11,484 nucleotides of DNA from Caulobacter sp. CCH9-E1 (GTDB lineage Bacteria; Pseudomonadota; Alphaproteobacteria; Caulobacterales; Caulobacteraceae), in NCBI RefSeq assembly GCF_001556515.1, contig NZ_LSJA01000150.1:1-11484 (forward strand), written 5' to 3'. Under the pieces are notes generated by a model. It made no database searches, had not been told where the DNA came from, and saw only the letters and a program-made list of their open reading frames with translations. Shown here in pieces: positions 5,601-11,477 of the stretch. Positions within the stretch are counted from its first letter, which is position 1. Every line of letters begins with the position of its first letter. Both the position numbers and the translations under genes were made by a program.

Positions 5601-5822
5601 CTAGAAGTCGACCGCCACGCCCTTTTTCTCCCAGTCGCCGAAGCGAGTTGGTTCCGGACCGTCGCGGCCGCCCTGTTCGGGAGGGAGCGACAACGCTTCC
5701 TCGGCCGCGCGGCGGGCGGCGGCTTCCTCGAGGGCGCGGCGGGCGGCGGGGCTCAAAGCCTTGCCGGGCGCGGCTCCGGGAACCTCAGGAGCATCGGAAG
5801 GGGCGGCGGGAAGATCAGACAT
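5601..5822 (-). CDS. SDHAF4-like succinate dehydrogenase assembly factor (DUF1674)
   Basis: This small protein of 73 residues ends in the conserved block GGRDGPEPTRFGDWEKKGVAVDF (residues 51-73, counted approximately), whose GPEPTR-x-GDWE core and terminal DF identify the DUF1674/SDHAF4 family. In mitochondria SDHAF4 binds the flavinylated SdhA subunit before it joins SdhB; a similar soluble chaperone role in this bacterium is inferred. The first 50 residues are Ala/Pro/Glu-rich and low in complexity, with no signal peptide or membrane segment, which is normal for the family. No clear Shine-Dalgarno precedes the ATG, but a good sigma-70 promoter lies about 25-50 bases upstream, so the message would have a very short leader. 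It is divergent from a haem-copper-oxidase-like membrane gene. Confidence 0.9.
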   Translation of the reverse strand: MSDLPAAPSDAPEVPGAAPGKALSPAARRALEEAAARRAAEEALSLPPEQGGRDGPEPTRFGDWEKKGVAVDF

Positions 5823-5845
5823 GACAAAGGTTTAACATCATGACG

Positions 5846-5874
5846 GTTGAAGCCGCCAGTCACATGCTGTTCAA
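5846..5874 (-). promoter_or_regulatory. Sigma-70 promoter for the SDHAF4-like gene, within an inverted repeat
   Basis: On the minus strand TTGAACA (5868-5874) is a -35 candidate, followed after 14 bases by GCTTCAAC (5846-5853). The latter matches the Caulobacter housekeeping -10 consensus GCTANAWC at every position but one. Transcription would start near 5839, about 15-17 bases before the ATG at 5822. The two boxes contain the arms of a perfect inverted repeat, GGTTGAA (5845-5851) and TTCAACC (5870-5876), so a dimeric regulator could also bind here. It overlaps what would be the first codons of a longer version of the divergent gene, which argues for the shorter start of that gene. Confidence 0.5.
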
Positions 5875-5920
5875 CCCCGCCTCCAAGATAACCGCGTTCG
5901 AATACCGAGGTAATTTAGAG

Positions 5921-6328
5921 ATGAGCCGCAGCCGCTGGCCCCACGCCTTCTTCGCGTCGGCCGCCTTCTACGCCATGGTCGGAGTCTGCTGGGGCCTGGC
6001 GATGGGGATGACCAAGAACCACGCCACCTATTCGGCCCACGCCCACCTCAATCTGCTGGGCTGGCTCAGCCTGGCGATGATGGGAACCTTCTACGCCACG
6101 CTCGGCCAGGGCGTGTCGAACAAGGTCAAGGCGGCGAACTTCGCCATCTCGAATCTGGGCGTGCTGCTGATGATCCCGGGGCTGTTCATGTATCTGGGCC
6201 AGGCCGGGCCTTCGGCGGTGTTCGAGCCGATGATCGCGGCGGGCTCGTTGCTGGTCGTCCTCGGCTTCTTCGTGTTCGGCGTCACGGCGATCCGGGGCCT
6301 GTTCCACGCCCTGGCGAAGACCGCCTAG
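5921..6328 (+). CDS. Small four-helix membrane protein related to haem-copper oxidase subunit I
   Basis: With the start at 5921 the product has 135 residues and four membrane helices, near 9-31, 40-62, 71-92 and 98-125. The motif HAHLNLLGW (His40, His42) opening helix 2 is characteristic of a family of short proteins annotated as cytochrome-c oxidase or COX1-like; it resembles one helix pair of cbb3/NO-reductase-type subunit I. The protein is far too short to be a working oxidase, so a role in haem or copper handling, assembly or sensing is only a guess. The reading frame is open from an ATG at 5840. I prefer 5921 because the extra 27 codons include rare ones (ATA, CGA, TTA, AAT), carry no family features, and overlap the divergent promoter. 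GAGG at 5907-5910 gives a 10-base spacing to this ATG. rsmB follows after 57 bases. Confidence 0.75.
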   Translation: MSRSRWPHAFFASAAFYAMVGVCWGLAMGMTKNHATYSAHAHLNLLGWLSLAMMGTFYATLGQGVSNKVKAANFAISNLGVLLMIPGLFMYLGQAGPSAVFEPMIAAGSLLVVLGFFVFGVTAIRGLFHALAKTA

Positions 6329-6385
6329 GGCCCAGCCGCGTCGAATCCGCTTGCGCTCGGGCGCGCCTCTTGGCACGGCGGGGCG

Positions 6386-7678
6386 GTGACTCAAGAACTG
6401 AACGACGGCCTCCCCGCCCGGGAGGCCGCCCTGACCCTGATCGACGCGGCCCTGTCGCGGCGCGGCGGCCTCGACGAGGCCGCCTCGGCCAACGGCTTCC
6501 GCTTCCTGGAGCCGCGCGAACGGGCCTTCGCCCGCGCCCTGGCCATGGCCGTGCTGCGGCACCTCGGCCCCATCGACCGCGCCCTGGCCGCCCGCCTGCA
6601 GAAGGCCCCGCCGGACCGCGTCATGCACCTGCTGCGCCTCGGCGCGGCCCAGGCCTTCCACCTGGAGGTCCCGGCCTTCGCCGCCGTGGCGACCTCGGTC
6701 GAGCTGGCCGGCGCCAACAAGGCCAGCCGTCCGTTCAAGGGCCTGGTCAACGCCGTGCTGCGCGGCCTGCTGCGCGACGCCCCGCCGAGCGACGATCCCA
6801 CCCTGCTGGCCCCACCCTGGCTCTATTCGCGCTGGGTCGCCGCGTTCGGCGAGGCCACGGCGCGCCAGATCGCCGCCCAGATCGCCCTGGAGCCCGCCAC
6901 CGACCTGTCCCTCAAGCCCGGCGCCGACGCGGCGGCTCTGGCCGAGACGCTTGAGGGCGAGGTCCTGCCCGGCGGGACCTTGCGCCTGCGCCGCAAGGGC
7001 GACGTCGCCGCCTGGCCGGGCTTCGAGGACGGGAGCTGGTGGGTGCAGGACGCCGCCGCCGCCGTCCCCGCCCGCCTGCTGGACGTCAAGGCTGGCGAGG
7101 CCGTGCTCGACCTCTGCGCCGCGCCCGGCGGCAAGACCCTGCAGCTGGCGGCCGCCGGGGCGAGCGTCGTCGCGCTCGACCGCTCGGCCGCGCGCCTCAA
7201 GCGTCTGGAGGAGAATCTAGTCCGCACCGGGCTCCAAGCCGAGGTCGTGGCCGCCGACGGCGCGACCTGGGAGGACACGCGGACCTTCGACGCCATCCTG
7301 TTGGACGCGCCGTGCAGCGCCACCGGCACCTTCCGCCGCCATCCGGACGTGCTGTGGGCCGCGCGGCCCGGCGACGTCGCCAGCCTCGCCAATGTCCAGG
7401 CCCGCATCCTGGACAGCGCCGCCGGCCGCCTCAAGCCCGGCGGGCGCCTCGTCTACTGCGTCTGCTCGCTGGAGCCCGAGGAGGGCGAGGCCCAGGTCGA
7501 GGCCTTCCTGGCCCGCCGCCCGGACATGGCGCTGGACCCGATTCAGCCGGGCGAAGGCGGCGCGGCAGGTTTCCCTGGGGCCAGCCTGACCGCGCGCGGC
7601 GCGCTGCGCCTGCTGCCGCACCAGCTGGACGGCGGCCAGGACGGCTTCTTCGCCGCGCGGTTTCGCAAGGCAAGCTGA
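6386..7678 (+). CDS. rsmB: 16S rRNA (cytosine-967-C5)-methyltransferase
   Basis: RsmB places a methyl group from S-adenosylmethionine on C967 of 16S rRNA. The 430-residue protein has the expected two parts. Residues 8-135 form a NusB-like helical RNA-binding domain (RERAFARAL, HLLRLGAAQAF, NAVLRGLLR). The Rossmann methyltransferase domain from about residue 215 has SAM motif I VLDLCAAPGGKT (240-251), motif IV LLDAPCSATGTFRRHPD with Cys310, and motif VI CVCSLEPEEGE with Cys360, the likely catalytic nucleophile by analogy to other m5C RNA methyltransferases. The start is a GTG; no in-frame ATG occurs until well inside the NusB domain. Length and domain order are normal. It begins a plus-strand run with rpe. 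The RsmB/RsmF choice rests on the N-terminal NusB-like domain. Confidence 0.92.
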   Translation: MTQELNDGLPAREAALTLIDAALSRRGGLDEAASANGFRFLEPRERAFARALAMAVLRHLGPIDRALAARLQKAPPDRVMHLLRLGAAQAFHLEVPAFAAVATSVELAGANKASRPFKGLVNAVLRGLLRDAPPSDDPTLLAPPWLYSRWVAAFGEATARQIAAQIALEPATDLSLKPGADAAALAETLEGEVLPGGTLRLRRKGDVAAWPGFEDGSWWVQDAAAAVPARLLDVKAGEAVLDLCAAPGGKTLQLAAAGASVVALDRSAARLKRLEENLVRTGLQAEVVAADGATWEDTRTFDAILLDAPCSATGTFRRHPDVLWAARPGDVASLANVQARILDSAAGRLKPGGRLVYCVCSLEPEEGEAQVEAFLARRPDMALDPIQPGEGGAAGFPGASLTARGALRLLPHQLDGGQDGFFAARFRKAS

Positions 7679-7762
7679 GCCCGCGACCAAGCCGCCCCAT
7701 TTCTACGCTTAACGCGTCCCGTCCGGGATGACAGAGCGACTCGGGCCCGCTATCCCAGGGTC

Positions 7763-8422
7763 ATGACCGCGCCGCTCATCGCCCCGTCGATCCTCGCCTC
7801 CGACTTCGCCCGCCTGGGCGAGGAAGTCGCCGCCATCGAGGCGGCCGGCGCCGACTGGGTGCATGTCGACGTGATGGACGGCCACTTCGTGCCCAACATC
7901 ACGCTGGGTCCGGACGTCGTTCGGGCGATCCGGCCGCACGCCAAGATCCCGTTTGACGTGCACCTGATGATCAGTCCGGCCGACCCGTATCTGGAGGCCT
8001 TCCGCGCCGCCGGAGCCGACATCATCAGCATCCATCCCGAGGCCGGCCCGCACCTGCACCGCTCCCTGAAGCGGATCCGCGAGCTGGGCGCCAAGGCGGG
8101 CGTCGTCTTCAACCCGTCCACCAGCATCGACCACGTCGAGTGGATCCTGGAGGACGTCGACCTCTTGCTGGTCATGTCGGTCAATCCCGGCTTCGGCGGC
8201 CAGAGCTTCATCCCCGGCCAGCTGCGCAAGGTCGAGGCCCTGCGCAAGATGGTCGACAAGGCCGGGCTAGATATCCTGCTGGAGGTCGACGGCGGCGTCA
8301 CCCCGGTCACCGCCCCGCAGTGCGTGGCCGCCGGGGCTGACGCCCTCGTCGCCGGCTCGGCGGTGTTCAAGGGCGGCCGCGAGGCCTACGCCGCCAACAT
8401 CCGCGCGCTGAAGGGCGGCTGA
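7763..8422 (+). CDS. rpe: Ribulose-phosphate 3-epimerase
   Basis: Rpe interconverts D-ribulose 5-phosphate and D-xylulose 5-phosphate in the pentose phosphate pathway (and in the Calvin cycle where present). The 219-residue TIM barrel is of standard length and has the family hallmarks: APSILASDF with Ser9, the metal-binding His34 and Asp36 in [13 protein letters not shown], His67 in DVHLMI, the phosphate-loop residues of VNPGFGGQ, and the acid-base pair Asp36/Asp176, the latter in EVDGGV. The ATG is preceded by AGGG at unusually short spacing. The 84-base gap from rsmB contains a small inverted repeat, TCCCG-TC-CGGGA (7717-7728), and no convincing promoter. The heparinase-like gene starts 4 bases after the stop, so the two are probably cotranscribed and translationally coupled. 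Confidence 0.97.
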
Positions 8423-8426
8423 TCCC

Positions 8427-10166
8427 TTGGCTCCAGCCGTCAAGCGTTCCGCCAACGGCTATCGTCCTCCCGCCAGGAAGCGGGCCCGGGTCTTTTGGCG
8501 GGCCCTGACGGCCGAGCTTTCCACCCACATCGAGCACGAGTGGTTCGGCTCGGGCCCGCATCGCCTCATTCTCTCCGGCCCCAAGGTCGAGGCCCTGGCC
8601 GCCCATCCGCGCGACCCGCGCCCCTCCAACGCCGGACAGGGTCGCCGCATCCTGGCCGGGACCTTGGCGCTGGACGGCGGCTCCGTGCGGATCGGCGAGG
8701 CGGGCGACCCGTTCGACACCGCCAGCCCCACGCGCCGCTTCGCCGTCAGCCTGCACCGCTTCGACTGGCTGCCCGACCTGATCGCCGCCAGCCCCGACGG
8801 CGCCCGCCGGGCCCTGCGCCTGATCGACGACTGGCGGCGGGTGTTCGGCAAGTGGAACGCCTTCTCCTGGGGTCCGGAATGCCTGGAGCGGCGGGTCTTC
8901 CACCTGGCCTGCGCCGCCCGCCCCCTGGCCGCCGAGGCCAGCGACGCCGAGGCCGCCGACCTGCGCCGCGACCTGGCCCGCCAGGCCCGGCACCTGGCCG
9001 AGATCCGGAAGATCCCCGCCCGCGCCCTGGAGCGCGCCGTCGCCGTGACGATCGCCGGCTGCGTCCTGGCCGGCAAGCCGGGCGAGGCCCTGATCGACAA
9101 GGGCCTCAAGGCCCTGGCCCGCCACATCGACCGCATCGTCCTGCCCGACGGCGGCCACGCCACCCGCTCGCCCGAGGCCGGGGTCGAGCTCCTGTTCGAC
9201 CTCCTGACCCTCGACGACGCCCTGCGCCAGCGCGGCAAGCCGACGCCCGAGGCCGCCGCCCGCGCCATCGACCGCCTGTCGACCGCCACACGCTTCTTCA
9301 CCCTCGGCGACGGTCATCTGGCGGCCTTCCATGGCGGCGAGACGGTCGGCCCGACCCGCATCGCCGCGGCCCTGGCCCATGACGATAGCGGCCCGCGCCC
9401 CCTGATGAGCGCCCCGCACAGCGGCTACCAGAAGATGGTCGGCGGCTCGCTCGAACTCATCGCCGACTGCGGTTCGCCCGCCGCCGGCTTCCTGTCGATC
9501 GCCGCCTGCGCCCAGCCGGCCGCCATCGAGATCCTGTGCGCCAAGGACCGGCTGATCACCAGCTGCGGCTGGAGCCCCGAGGCCGCCGGCGCCCACGCCT
9601 TCCGCCTGTCCGACGCGGCCTCGACCGTCTCGGTCGGCGACGGCTCGGCCGGTCGGCCGCTGTCCGGATTCCGCGCCAAGGCCCTGGGCCCCTGGCTGGT
9701 CGACGGCGCGACCAAGGTCGAGGCCCAGCGCCACGACGACGTCGGCGGGGTGTGGCTGGACATCGTCCACGATGGCTGGCGCCACGTCGGCCTGACCCAC
9801 ACCCGCCGCCTGTTCCTCGACGCCGTCGCCGACGAGCTGCGCGGCGAGGACAGCCTGACCCCCATGGCCGCCCAGGACCTCGACGCCGCGTCAGGCCCGC
9901 GCCGCTACCTGCCGTTCGCCGTGCGCTTCCACCTGCACCCCGAGGCCCGCGCCTCGATCGCCCGCGACGGCAAGAGCGTGCTGATCCGGGGCCCGAACAA
10001 CATCGGCTGGTGGCTGAGGAACGACGCCGTCGACGTCGAGATCGCCCCGTCGGCCCACTTCGACCACGGCCTGGCGCGCAAGGCCGGCCAGGTGGTGCTC
10101 AAGAGCCAGGTCCGCCCGGAGGTGGGGGCGAAGATCAGGTGGAAACTGACGCGGGCGGAGGGGTGA
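8427..10166 (+). CDS. Heparinase II/III-family protein, apparently cytoplasmic
   Basis: This 579-residue protein resembles heparinase II/III polysaccharide lyases. The N-terminal half (about residues 20-300) is a helical region consistent with the alpha/alpha toroid. The C-terminal half is the beta-rich heparinase II/III-like domain: APHSGYQKMVGGSLELIADCG (His331, Tyr334), THTRRLFLD, and the FHLHP strand (His502, His504). In characterised lyases the first block reads HADALSF with a His used in catalysis; here HSGYQ replaces it, so activity cannot be assumed. The N-terminus is strongly basic and has no signal peptide, unusual for an enzyme acting on extracellular glycans. The start is a TTG 4 bases after the rpe stop, with GGCGG about 8 bases before it. 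No ATG or GTG lies nearby in frame. Substrate is unknown; a cell-envelope or exopolysaccharide glycan is a guess. Confidence 0.85.
   Translation: MAPAVKRSANGYRPPARKRARVFWRALTAELSTHIEHEWFGSGPHRLILSGPKVEALAAHPRDPRPSNAGQGRRILAGTLALDGGSVRIGEAGDPFDTASPTRRFAVSLHRFDWLPDLIAASPDGARRALRLIDDWRRVFGKWNAFSWGPECLERRVFHLACAARPLAAEASDAEAADLRRDLARQARHLAEIRKIPARALERAVAVTIAGCVLAGKPGEALIDKGLKALARHIDRIVLPDGGHATRSPEAGVELLFDLLTLDDALRQRGKPTPEAAARAIDRLSTATRFFTLGDGHLAAFHGGETVGPTRIAAALAHDDSGPRPLMSAPHSGYQKMVGGSLELIADCGSPAAGFLSIAACAQPAAIEILCAKDRLITSCGWSPEAAGAHAFRLSDAASTVSVGDGSAGRPLSGFRAKALGPWLVDGATKVEAQRHDDVGGVWLDIVHDGWRHVGLTHTRRLFLDAVADELRGEDSLTPMAAQDLDAASGPRRYLPFAVRFHLHPEARASIARDGKSVLIRGPNNIGWWLRNDAVDVEIAPSAHFDHGLARKAGQVVLKSQVRPEVGAKIRWKLTRAEG
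10157..10163 (+). promoter_or_regulatory. Ribosome-binding site of the DUF3883 gene, inside the heparinase 3' end
   Basis: GGAGGGG lies in the last codons of the heparinase-family gene, 4 bases before the GTG at 10168. With the heparinase TGA at 10164-10166 only one base away from that GTG, translation of the two genes is probably coupled. The strong site favours GTG 10168 over the in-frame ATG at residue 20. Confidence 0.6.
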
Positions 10167-10167
10167 G

Positions 10168-11304
10168 GTGAAGATCCAGCCGCTCTACAAGCAATTGCTC
10201 AGTCGCCGCGCCGTACTTCAAGCGATGGAAGAATATGACCGGGACAAGACGGCGTTTCTTGACCGGTATGGATACGGCGAAGCTGATACCTACTTCCTCC
10301 GCCACGAAGGGCGGGCATACGCGAGCAAAGCAATTTTAGGCGTTGCGTATGGCTATCAGTATCCGGATCGAGGCCCCCTAAAGCACGATCAGTTCTCCGG
10401 CGGGAAAGCCGGAGCGGCGCGGCATCTCTCGATGCTTGGTTTCCATGTGGATGGGATCGACAGGGAGTCCGACGATTGGAAGCTTCAGGAAGTCCAAACA
10501 GTGGTCTCCGAATACTTTCGCCTCTATAGACTGCAGATTGAGGGATCTTATTCGCGAAAGCGAGATTTTAGCCAGACACTGGCGGCGATACCAACGCGCA
10601 ATGAAAGTTCCATAAGCCGGAAATTCAGCAACATAGCCGCTATTCTCGCTGAAGCTCAGTTACCGCTCGTCAAAGGCTTTAGCCCGCTTGGCAACAAGCA
10701 GACACTACTCGCTGCGGTCATTTATGATTGGGTTCGTGAAAGCCCGGAAGCGTTTGATACGCCTCTTTCAGCTGCCAGCCTTTCGCCATCCACCCCCGCG
10801 GGCGTTGAGGTCCCACCGCCTTCCGTTATCCGAGTTGCCCGCACCGCAAAGGAGCGAAAGGCGGTCCGCGTGGACTTTGCAGTGCGGGACGAGCGCAATC
10901 GCCGCCTTGGTAAAGCCGGCGAGGAGTGGGCTTTACGAGTGCTGAAACTCGAACTTGTCGAAGCGGGTAGGCCCGATTTGGCTGAACGGGTGACTTGGAT
11001 AAGCGACAAAGAAGGTGATGGGCTCGGCTACGATATCGCCTCCTTCGCTCGCAACGGCGACCCGCTAGCTGTCGAAGTGAAAACTACTAACGGTGGACAT
11101 GCAGCACCCTTCATTGTGACGGAGGGTGAGGTGCGGGCTTCCGAAGAAGAGTCGGGGTACGTCCTGATGCGGATTTTCGACTTTAGCCAAAACCCCCGCT
11201 TTTATCGGCTAGAGGGCTCCCTAAGGAAAAACTGCACCCTAAGGCCCTTAGCCTTCAGCGCCTTTCCCACGACGGAAGAAGACGGCCTGCCGATAGAGTT
11301 CTAA
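10168..11304 (+). CDS. Candidate type IV-like restriction nuclease: ScoMcrA-like head plus DUF3883 (PD-(D/E)XK)
   Basis: This 378-residue protein appears to have three parts. Residues 1-96 (YDRDKTAFLDRYGYG, then Tyr51-x-SKAILGVAYG, then FSGG at 76-79 and LGFHVDG) resemble the N-terminal head of ScoMcrA-type modified-DNA endonucleases. Residues 103-196 (EVQTVVSEYF, then RNESSISRKFSNIAAIL at 144-160, then LPLVKGFSPLGNKQ) match a domain I recall recurring in DUF3883 proteins. A Pro/Ser-rich linker near 197-225 leads to the C-terminal DUF3883 domain with Glu252/Glu253, GYD289, and Glu303-Val-Lys305, the arrangement of PD-(D/E)XK nucleases. No transmembrane segment or signal peptide is seen. GC is about 53-55% in lines counted, against 78% in the neighbour, and TTA, ATA and CGA codons occur, indicating recent transfer. 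Recognition of modified DNA and anti-phage function are inferred; the substrate is unknown. Domain assignments are from memory. Confidence 0.8.
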   Translation: MKIQPLYKQLLSRRAVLQAMEEYDRDKTAFLDRYGYGEADTYFLRHEGRAYASKAILGVAYGYQYPDRGPLKHDQFSGGKAGAARHLSMLGFHVDGIDRESDDWKLQEVQTVVSEYFRLYRLQIEGSYSRKRDFSQTLAAIPTRNESSISRKFSNIAAILAEAQLPLVKGFSPLGNKQTLLAAVIYDWVRESPEAFDTPLSAASLSPSTPAGVEVPPPSVIRVARTAKERKAVRVDFAVRDERNRRLGKAGEEWALRVLKLELVEAGRPDLAERVTWISDKEGDGLGYDIASFARNGDPLAVEVKTTNGGHAAPFIVTEGEVRASEEESGYVLMRIFDFSQNPRFYRLEGSLRKNCTLRPLAFSAFPTTEEDGLPIEF

Positions 11305-11324
11305 TTTGCCTCCGCTGGGCGCAC

Positions 11325-11477
11325 CCAACCTTACATCTCTCGAAGGCTGGAGCGTGCTGGGCTGACCGGGTTGGTCAAGGACCGGCCTCCGGCCGGCCGC
11401 CGCGCGGCGACGCGAAGCGTCGTCCTTGAGCAACCCGGTCAGCCCAGCGATCGTCTCGCCGTGAGATGTAAGGATGG
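11325..11477. repeat. Long inverted repeat enclosing three contiguous triloop hairpins
   Basis: An outer perfect 11-bp arm (CCTTACATCTC 11329-11339 with GAGATGTAAGG 11463-11473, plus a few pairs beyond it at 11325-11327/11475-11477) leads through an internal loop to a 26-bp stem, 11356-11381 with 11423-11448, containing one mismatch (11374/11430). The stem encloses exactly 41 bases (11382-11422), which are tiled without gaps by three perfect hairpins: CCGGCC-TCC-GGCCGG, CCGC-CGC-GCGG and CGACGC-GAA-GCGTCG. It could fold as DNA cruciform or as RNA from either strand. It begins about 20 bases after the stop codon of the foreign nuclease gene and may also serve as its transcript end. It could be a palindromic intergenic repeat, a non-autonomous mobile element or a structured RNA. 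No transposase is present and target-site duplications cannot be judged because the window ends at 11484. Confidence 0.8.

Follow-up and report, generated by a model that had tools for sequence, protein, structure and literature searches.

The locus

We analysed an 11,484-nucleotide stretch of Caulobacter sp. CCH9-E1 (contig NZ_LSJA01000150.1), hereafter the window, which carries near its end a gene for a 378-amino-acid protein composed of a ScoMcrA-type head, a helical middle module and a DUF3883 (NOV_C) domain. We consider this protein, with a probability of about one half, to be a single-protein, most likely type IV-like, restriction-type nuclease directed against incoming DNA. A preliminary description made from the DNA letters had placed a three-part gene here, and its open reading frame (ORF) and domains are confirmed by profile searches, the order of the three parts being borne out by Pfam, PADLOC and 5zmm matches. 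The features are as follows.

10168..11304, plus strand: gene for the head, middle and DUF3883 (NOV_C) protein, 378 amino acids, GTG start; a head-bearing member of PADLOC PDC-S36
10165..11317, no strand: variable segment, from the flank alignment to a close relative and the GC profile
10189..10455, plus strand: ScoMcrA-type N-terminal head, residues 8-96, from profile and structure matches, with PF26345 precomputed for the protein
10462..10767, plus strand: middle helical module, residues 99-200, Myb/homeodomain-like, from alignment conservation and predicted structure
10876..11256, plus strand: DUF3883/NOV_C domain, predicted PD-(D/E)XK nuclease, residues 237-363, from Pfam and fold matches
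10921..10923, plus strand: codon of E252 (helix-1 acid), from alignment conservation
11032..11034, plus strand: codon of D289, from alignment conservation
11074..11082, plus strand: codons of E303-V304-K305 (ExK), from alignment conservation

Upstream of this gene the window is an ordinary chromosomal stretch, with genes in the order FAD enzyme, MarC, OMP decarboxylase, cation ATPase, DUF1674, RsmB/F, ribulose-phosphate epimerase and a heparinase-like gene. One base separates the last of these from the ORF; the gap between its stop and the start at 10168 is too short for a promoter, and transcription would begin inside or upstream of the heparinase-like gene. The GC content drops across the gene from about 0.75 to 0.52-0.61, and is 0.559 over 10168-11304 versus 0.718 over the preceding 10,167 bases. 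In a close relative (G358), whose heparinase-like protein is 95% identical to that of the window, positions 5603-10164 align at 92.5% and those from 11318 to the window end (11484) at 91.6%, while 1153 window bases between these flanks are replaced by 1319 different bases with a GC content of 0.543. The largest frame of the replacement encodes 354 amino acids on the other strand (L151 6942-8003) and has no Pfam or PADLOC match at E<=1e-3. Because conserved flanks enclose different segments in the two genomes, the 10168 gene looks like exchangeable cargo of foreign origin at a variable site. No DNA methyltransferase lies beside it in the window, as the preliminary description had noted.

Window positions 11325-11477, just 3' of the gene, hold a nested pair of inverted repeats (27 nt at 96% and 18 nt at 89%). 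As they are kept at 91.6% in G358, they are probably part of the host flank; an Rfam scan of the window, including the repeats, gave no match.

Domain architecture

The C-terminal domain matches PF13020 (DUF3883/NOV_C) with 55 bits, against a Pfam gathering cut-off of 22.1. Its predicted core fold carries the helix-1 E, the strand D and the ExK of PD-(D/E)XK enzymes, and its best fold matches are Hjc resolvases, with FAN1 also among them. The domain is therefore a probable PD-(D/E)XK nuclease by prediction, and the conserved residues and fold matches agree with the catalytic set of E, D289, E303 and K305 named earlier from the letters. The protein has no Pfam match to HNH up to E 1, its nuclease part being PD-(D/E)XK-like instead. 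An NCBIfam scan returned no match, and among phage records six match the DUF3883 part only and none covers 80% of the query.

The middle module, about 100 residues predicted to form helices only, conserves W104, E108, Y116, R144, K152, N155 and Q178, and is a probable Myb/homeodomain-like DNA-binding domain according to the predicted structure. It was compared with the reader domains of known modification-dependent enzymes. An SBD or SRA identity was rejected, as the 5zmm sequence matches stop at the head; the SBD of ScoMcrA is described, in the text available from that study, as having 10 helices and a three-stranded sheet (PMC6224610). NEco of EcoKMcrA was rejected as well, being built on a six-stranded beta-sheet according to the available part of its report (PMC7145662), whereas the middle module is helical by prediction. 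A search of solved structures with the middle-domain profile found no credible relative (one row, E 0.76), and an mTERF hint at E 0.14 and a match to the DASH subunit SPC34 at E 0.003 were dismissed as chance. Winged-helix domains reading 6mA in type IV enzymes, as described in PMC11037411, offer a precedent for readers of the helix-turn-helix type. No literature joining Myb, HNH and modification-dependent restriction was found.

The head superposes in its predicted fold on the ScoMcrA structure 5zmm at 1.3 A, with 43% identity over 68 aligned residues. A local Pfam scan did not list the head model among its matches, although PF26345 is precomputed for the protein. The preliminary description had argued from the ScoMcrA-like head to a modified-DNA target, and this step is not justified by the head alone, because the readers of ScoMcrA are SBD and SRA. 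The available text of the ScoMcrA study assigns the reading of phosphorothioate to SBD, connects SRA with 5mC, and describes the head as small, flexible and of unknown function (PMC6224610). Neither SBD nor SRA has a sequence match in our protein, the 5zmm profile match ending at residue 94 of the chain.

Module exchange among relatives

The middle-domain alignment served to search 398 Pseudomonadota genomes, with no more than 12 candidates scored in each, so that the counts are lower bounds. Matches occurred in at least 34 of these genomes, with 35 matches and 30 loci returned; 17 loci encode the middle module with NOV_C, six the head, middle module and NOV_C, and seven the middle module with HNH, the HNH being confirmed by Pfam in five (all those scanned) and by motif in the other two. 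In one such HNH protein, L123, the HNH half matches EcoKMcrA residues 156-286 (E 1.7e-31), while the front half, outside that match, is met at residues 6-138 by the front part of PDC-S36 (E 4.5e-28). The L123 family has 1604 matches, and several of the 120 listed are automatically named 5-methylcytosine-specific restriction enzymes or proteins. These fusions to McrA-type HNH nucleases lend indirect support to the middle domain as the reading part. One protein (L126 1096-2382) joins a UDG-superfamily domain, the middle module and a McrA-type HNH nuclease.

The head is found before other partners as well. It precedes a protein with HNH and a domain that we read as SRA-like in L096, which matches three stretches of the PADLOC mREase_IV model, and an HNH_2 protein in L098. 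In the P0080 family (139 matches), whose members combine a W-E domain with HNH, the head is found by profile in 49 of the 120 matches listed, and PF01878, which we take to be an EVE-type domain, in two of them. The relatives thus seem to be assembled from three swappable parts, an optional head, a DNA-recognition module and an exchangeable nuclease.

Distribution and genomic neighbourhoods

PF26345 and PF13020 occur together in 59 of 81 homologues (15 of the 81 are left out of A2). Among the best 80 loci in genome contigs, 25 have a clear head, the criterion being 20 or more identical residues in that domain; the residue counts omit four of the 80 loci (L020, L026, L052 and L072). At least nine of the 398 Pseudomonadota genomes carry the head, in a survey limited to 13 scored candidates in each.

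The relatives sit in defence-rich neighbourhoods. The neighbours of 26 loci, mechanically chosen as ORFs of 100-1300 amino acids, comprise 133 proteins, one of which (L026:116-673) is a piece of a split target gene. They matched 169 PADLOC models at E<=1e-8, against 13 for a control of 133 of the 134 such ORFs from ten arbitrary stretches of six genomes; the PADLOC models being redundant, these figures express enrichment by tally and not a number of systems. GajA, GajB, ZacB, ZacC and an RT-associated helicase are among the 25 matches listed for near neighbours, and 69 proteins further out matched 49 models, including ZorC, ZorD, DpdE and SspD. This setting in the relatives supports the defence role proposed earlier for the gene. 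No DNA methyltransferase was found by motif among the 133 neighbours.

Several recurrent neighbours were also seen. gyrB lies directly upstream of relatives in three loci (L019, L022 and L027), which suggests that insertion also recurs at a second site, 3' of gyrB. In two loci (L018 and L019) an HNH gene lies a short way 3' of the relative, and a HIT-domain gene does so in L004, L013 and L024, HIT occurring in 4 of the 133 neighbours. In L007 a protein with a methyltransferase domain and HNH_4 (150-2021) lies directly upstream of the relative.

A plasmid relative beside aac(3)-IId

By tblastn, relatives occur in 1213 of 72,556 plasmid records, 1102 of them at 80% of the query or more. The common plasmid relative, WP_000080860.1 (P0082), equals our protein in length and three-part architecture, is 37% identical over 369 columns, and matches PDC-S36 at E 6.1e-107. 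Plasmid records with its gene DNA number 1185, of which 1117 reach >=80% coverage; of the 1185, 880 are predicted to be conjugative. Plasmids of Escherichia, Klebsiella, Salmonella and Acinetobacter carry it most commonly. Among complete E. coli genomes, 599 of 5,426, or about one in nine, have a match (582 at >=80% coverage); 545 of the places are plasmid-borne and 81 chromosomal, 626 in all. The gene (L081 5986-7122) adjoins aac(3)-IId, and a 3.5 kb query running from aac(3)-IId through it is covered to at least 80% in 1026 plasmid records, the linkage being counted in plasmid records. No DNA methyltransferase appears in the plasmid stretches shown, for which the gene table is incomplete. 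In the available text of two papers on the aacC2-tmrB region, a term search found no nuclease or restriction gene named (PMC5517477, PMC11232968).

Discussion

Our preferred explanation is a single protein in which the middle Myb/homeodomain-like module would recognise incoming phage or plasmid DNA and the C-terminal PD-(D/E)XK domain, through E252, D289, E303 and K305, would cut it. The ScoMcrA-type head would be an optional accessory, perhaps giving an extra DNA contact, regulation or sensing. The target would be DNA bearing a feature absent from the host, such as a base modification. We favour this type IV-like mode because no methyltransferase partner is seen and because the middle module is common to McrA-type HNH enzymes. 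Dependence on modified DNA is better argued through this module, exchanged between DUF3883 and McrA-type nucleases, than through the head.

Some observations complicate this picture. P0075 (Oligoflexus) combines the head with NOV_C/DUF3883 and has no recognisable middle-module match. On a quick-method tree, which has 105 rows (the head being present in 46) and leaves out P0075 and P0077, the head is clustered but needs six changes, at least two of them forced by starred branches, and so is not a single clean gain. The proposed homology between the middle module and the W-E domain of the P0080 relatives is only suggestive, as hhalign gives a probability of 25.6 and E 7e-4 (controls 0.2-0.4). 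The spacing W-x3-E-x7-Y ... R-x7-K-x2-N is shared by 91 of 120 W-E domains and 66 of 69 middle modules (where Q was accepted besides E), and by none of 24,000 shuffles, but it was spotted before it was counted and the 120 P0080 relatives are not independent.

The optional head and its place before different nucleases, NOV_C in our protein and HNH in P0080 among others, would also suit a sensor or regulator, and the PD-T4-1 and Tiamat (TmtA) models match the DUF3883 part. The protein might then be a weakly specific, infection-triggered DNase of the abortive type, switched on only when its head detects a phage product and then degrading DNA broadly. We regard this as unlikely, because the middle module resembles a dedicated DNA-binding domain and occurs with McrA-type HNH, and because 17 of the 30 classified loci encode head-less NOV_C forms, for which a head sensor is not essential. 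Another possibility is a sequence-specific, type II-like endonuclease with its protecting methyltransferase elsewhere or supplied by a resident host enzyme. Helical DNA-binding domains can recognise particular sequences, an archaeal survey, in the part available, places DUF3883 'presumably' with type II restriction endonucleases (REases) (PMC10609329), and L007 provides a methyltransferase-domain protein next to a relative. However, the searches of the window, the plasmid stretches and the 133 neighbours revealed no DNA methyltransferase, and the gene moves alone and is replaced at one site, where an unprotected type II arrival should harm its host; such an enzyme is quite improbable here. The Hjc and FAN1 matches of the nuclease part could alternatively point to a recombination or repair nuclease of the Holliday-junction or flap type that takes no direct part in defence. 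This is the most remote of the explanations, as Hjc shares its fold with restriction enzymes, and the patchy distribution of the head, the variable site and the defence-rich neighbourhoods misfit a housekeeping role.

Within the restriction-type explanation, a bolder and doubtful proposal would make the middle module, defined by the spacing given above, a Myb/homeodomain-like domain of a so far undescribed kind that reads modified DNA, paired with PD-(D/E)XK (DUF3883) or McrA-type HNH nucleases with the head optional. This would amount to a new type IV branch. One member, matched in about one in nine complete E. coli genomes and often linked to aac(3)-IId on plasmids, would act to keep out phages or rival plasmids. 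In the modular scheme the middle domain becomes a testable reader, and an abundant, easily obtained relative adjoins a common aminoglycoside-resistance gene, in a family reaching far beyond the genome of the window. The function of that relative bears on whether resistance modules carry phage-defence cargo.

Comparison with known systems

The closest known entry is PDC-S36, a single-gene putative defence candidate of PADLOC, which shares the middle module and DUF3883. Residues 101-366 of our protein match positions 4-278 of its 280-position profile (E 4.5e-75), which lacks the head that our protein adds. The architecture had been suggested to be undescribed. This is true of the head, which is outside the PDC-S36 profile, but not of the combination of middle module and DUF3883, which is PDC-S36 itself, and DUF3883 was named a novel REase domain in 2013, in the text available from PMC3710099. 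Such candidates come from guilt-by-embedding and are, as far as the available part of PMC12988326 states, mostly or wholly unvalidated; the term PDC-S36 was not found in the literature among the matches listed. PD-T4-1 and Tiamat (TmtA) resemble our protein in the DUF3883 part (E 4.1e-12 and 2.3e-7), but the matches are confined to that end, from residue 210 on, and the listed models for TmtA run to 1302-1655 positions, against 378 amino acids here. No literature treating at least two of the names PD-T4-1, Tiamat and TmtA together was found.

ScoMcrA, a type IV enzyme of the order SBD-SRA-HNH, shares the head and differs from our protein in its DNA-binding module and nuclease fold. The EcoKMcrA-type HNH enzymes (for example L123 and its relative P0083) share the middle module, with HNH in place of PD-(D/E)XK and, in L123, no head. 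The P0080 family has the head in part of its members and a middle part of equal residue spacing, and differs in its HNH nuclease. The PDC-S36 candidate and the McrA-type HNH enzymes would thus fall into one modular scheme of optional head, DNA-recognition module and exchangeable nuclease.
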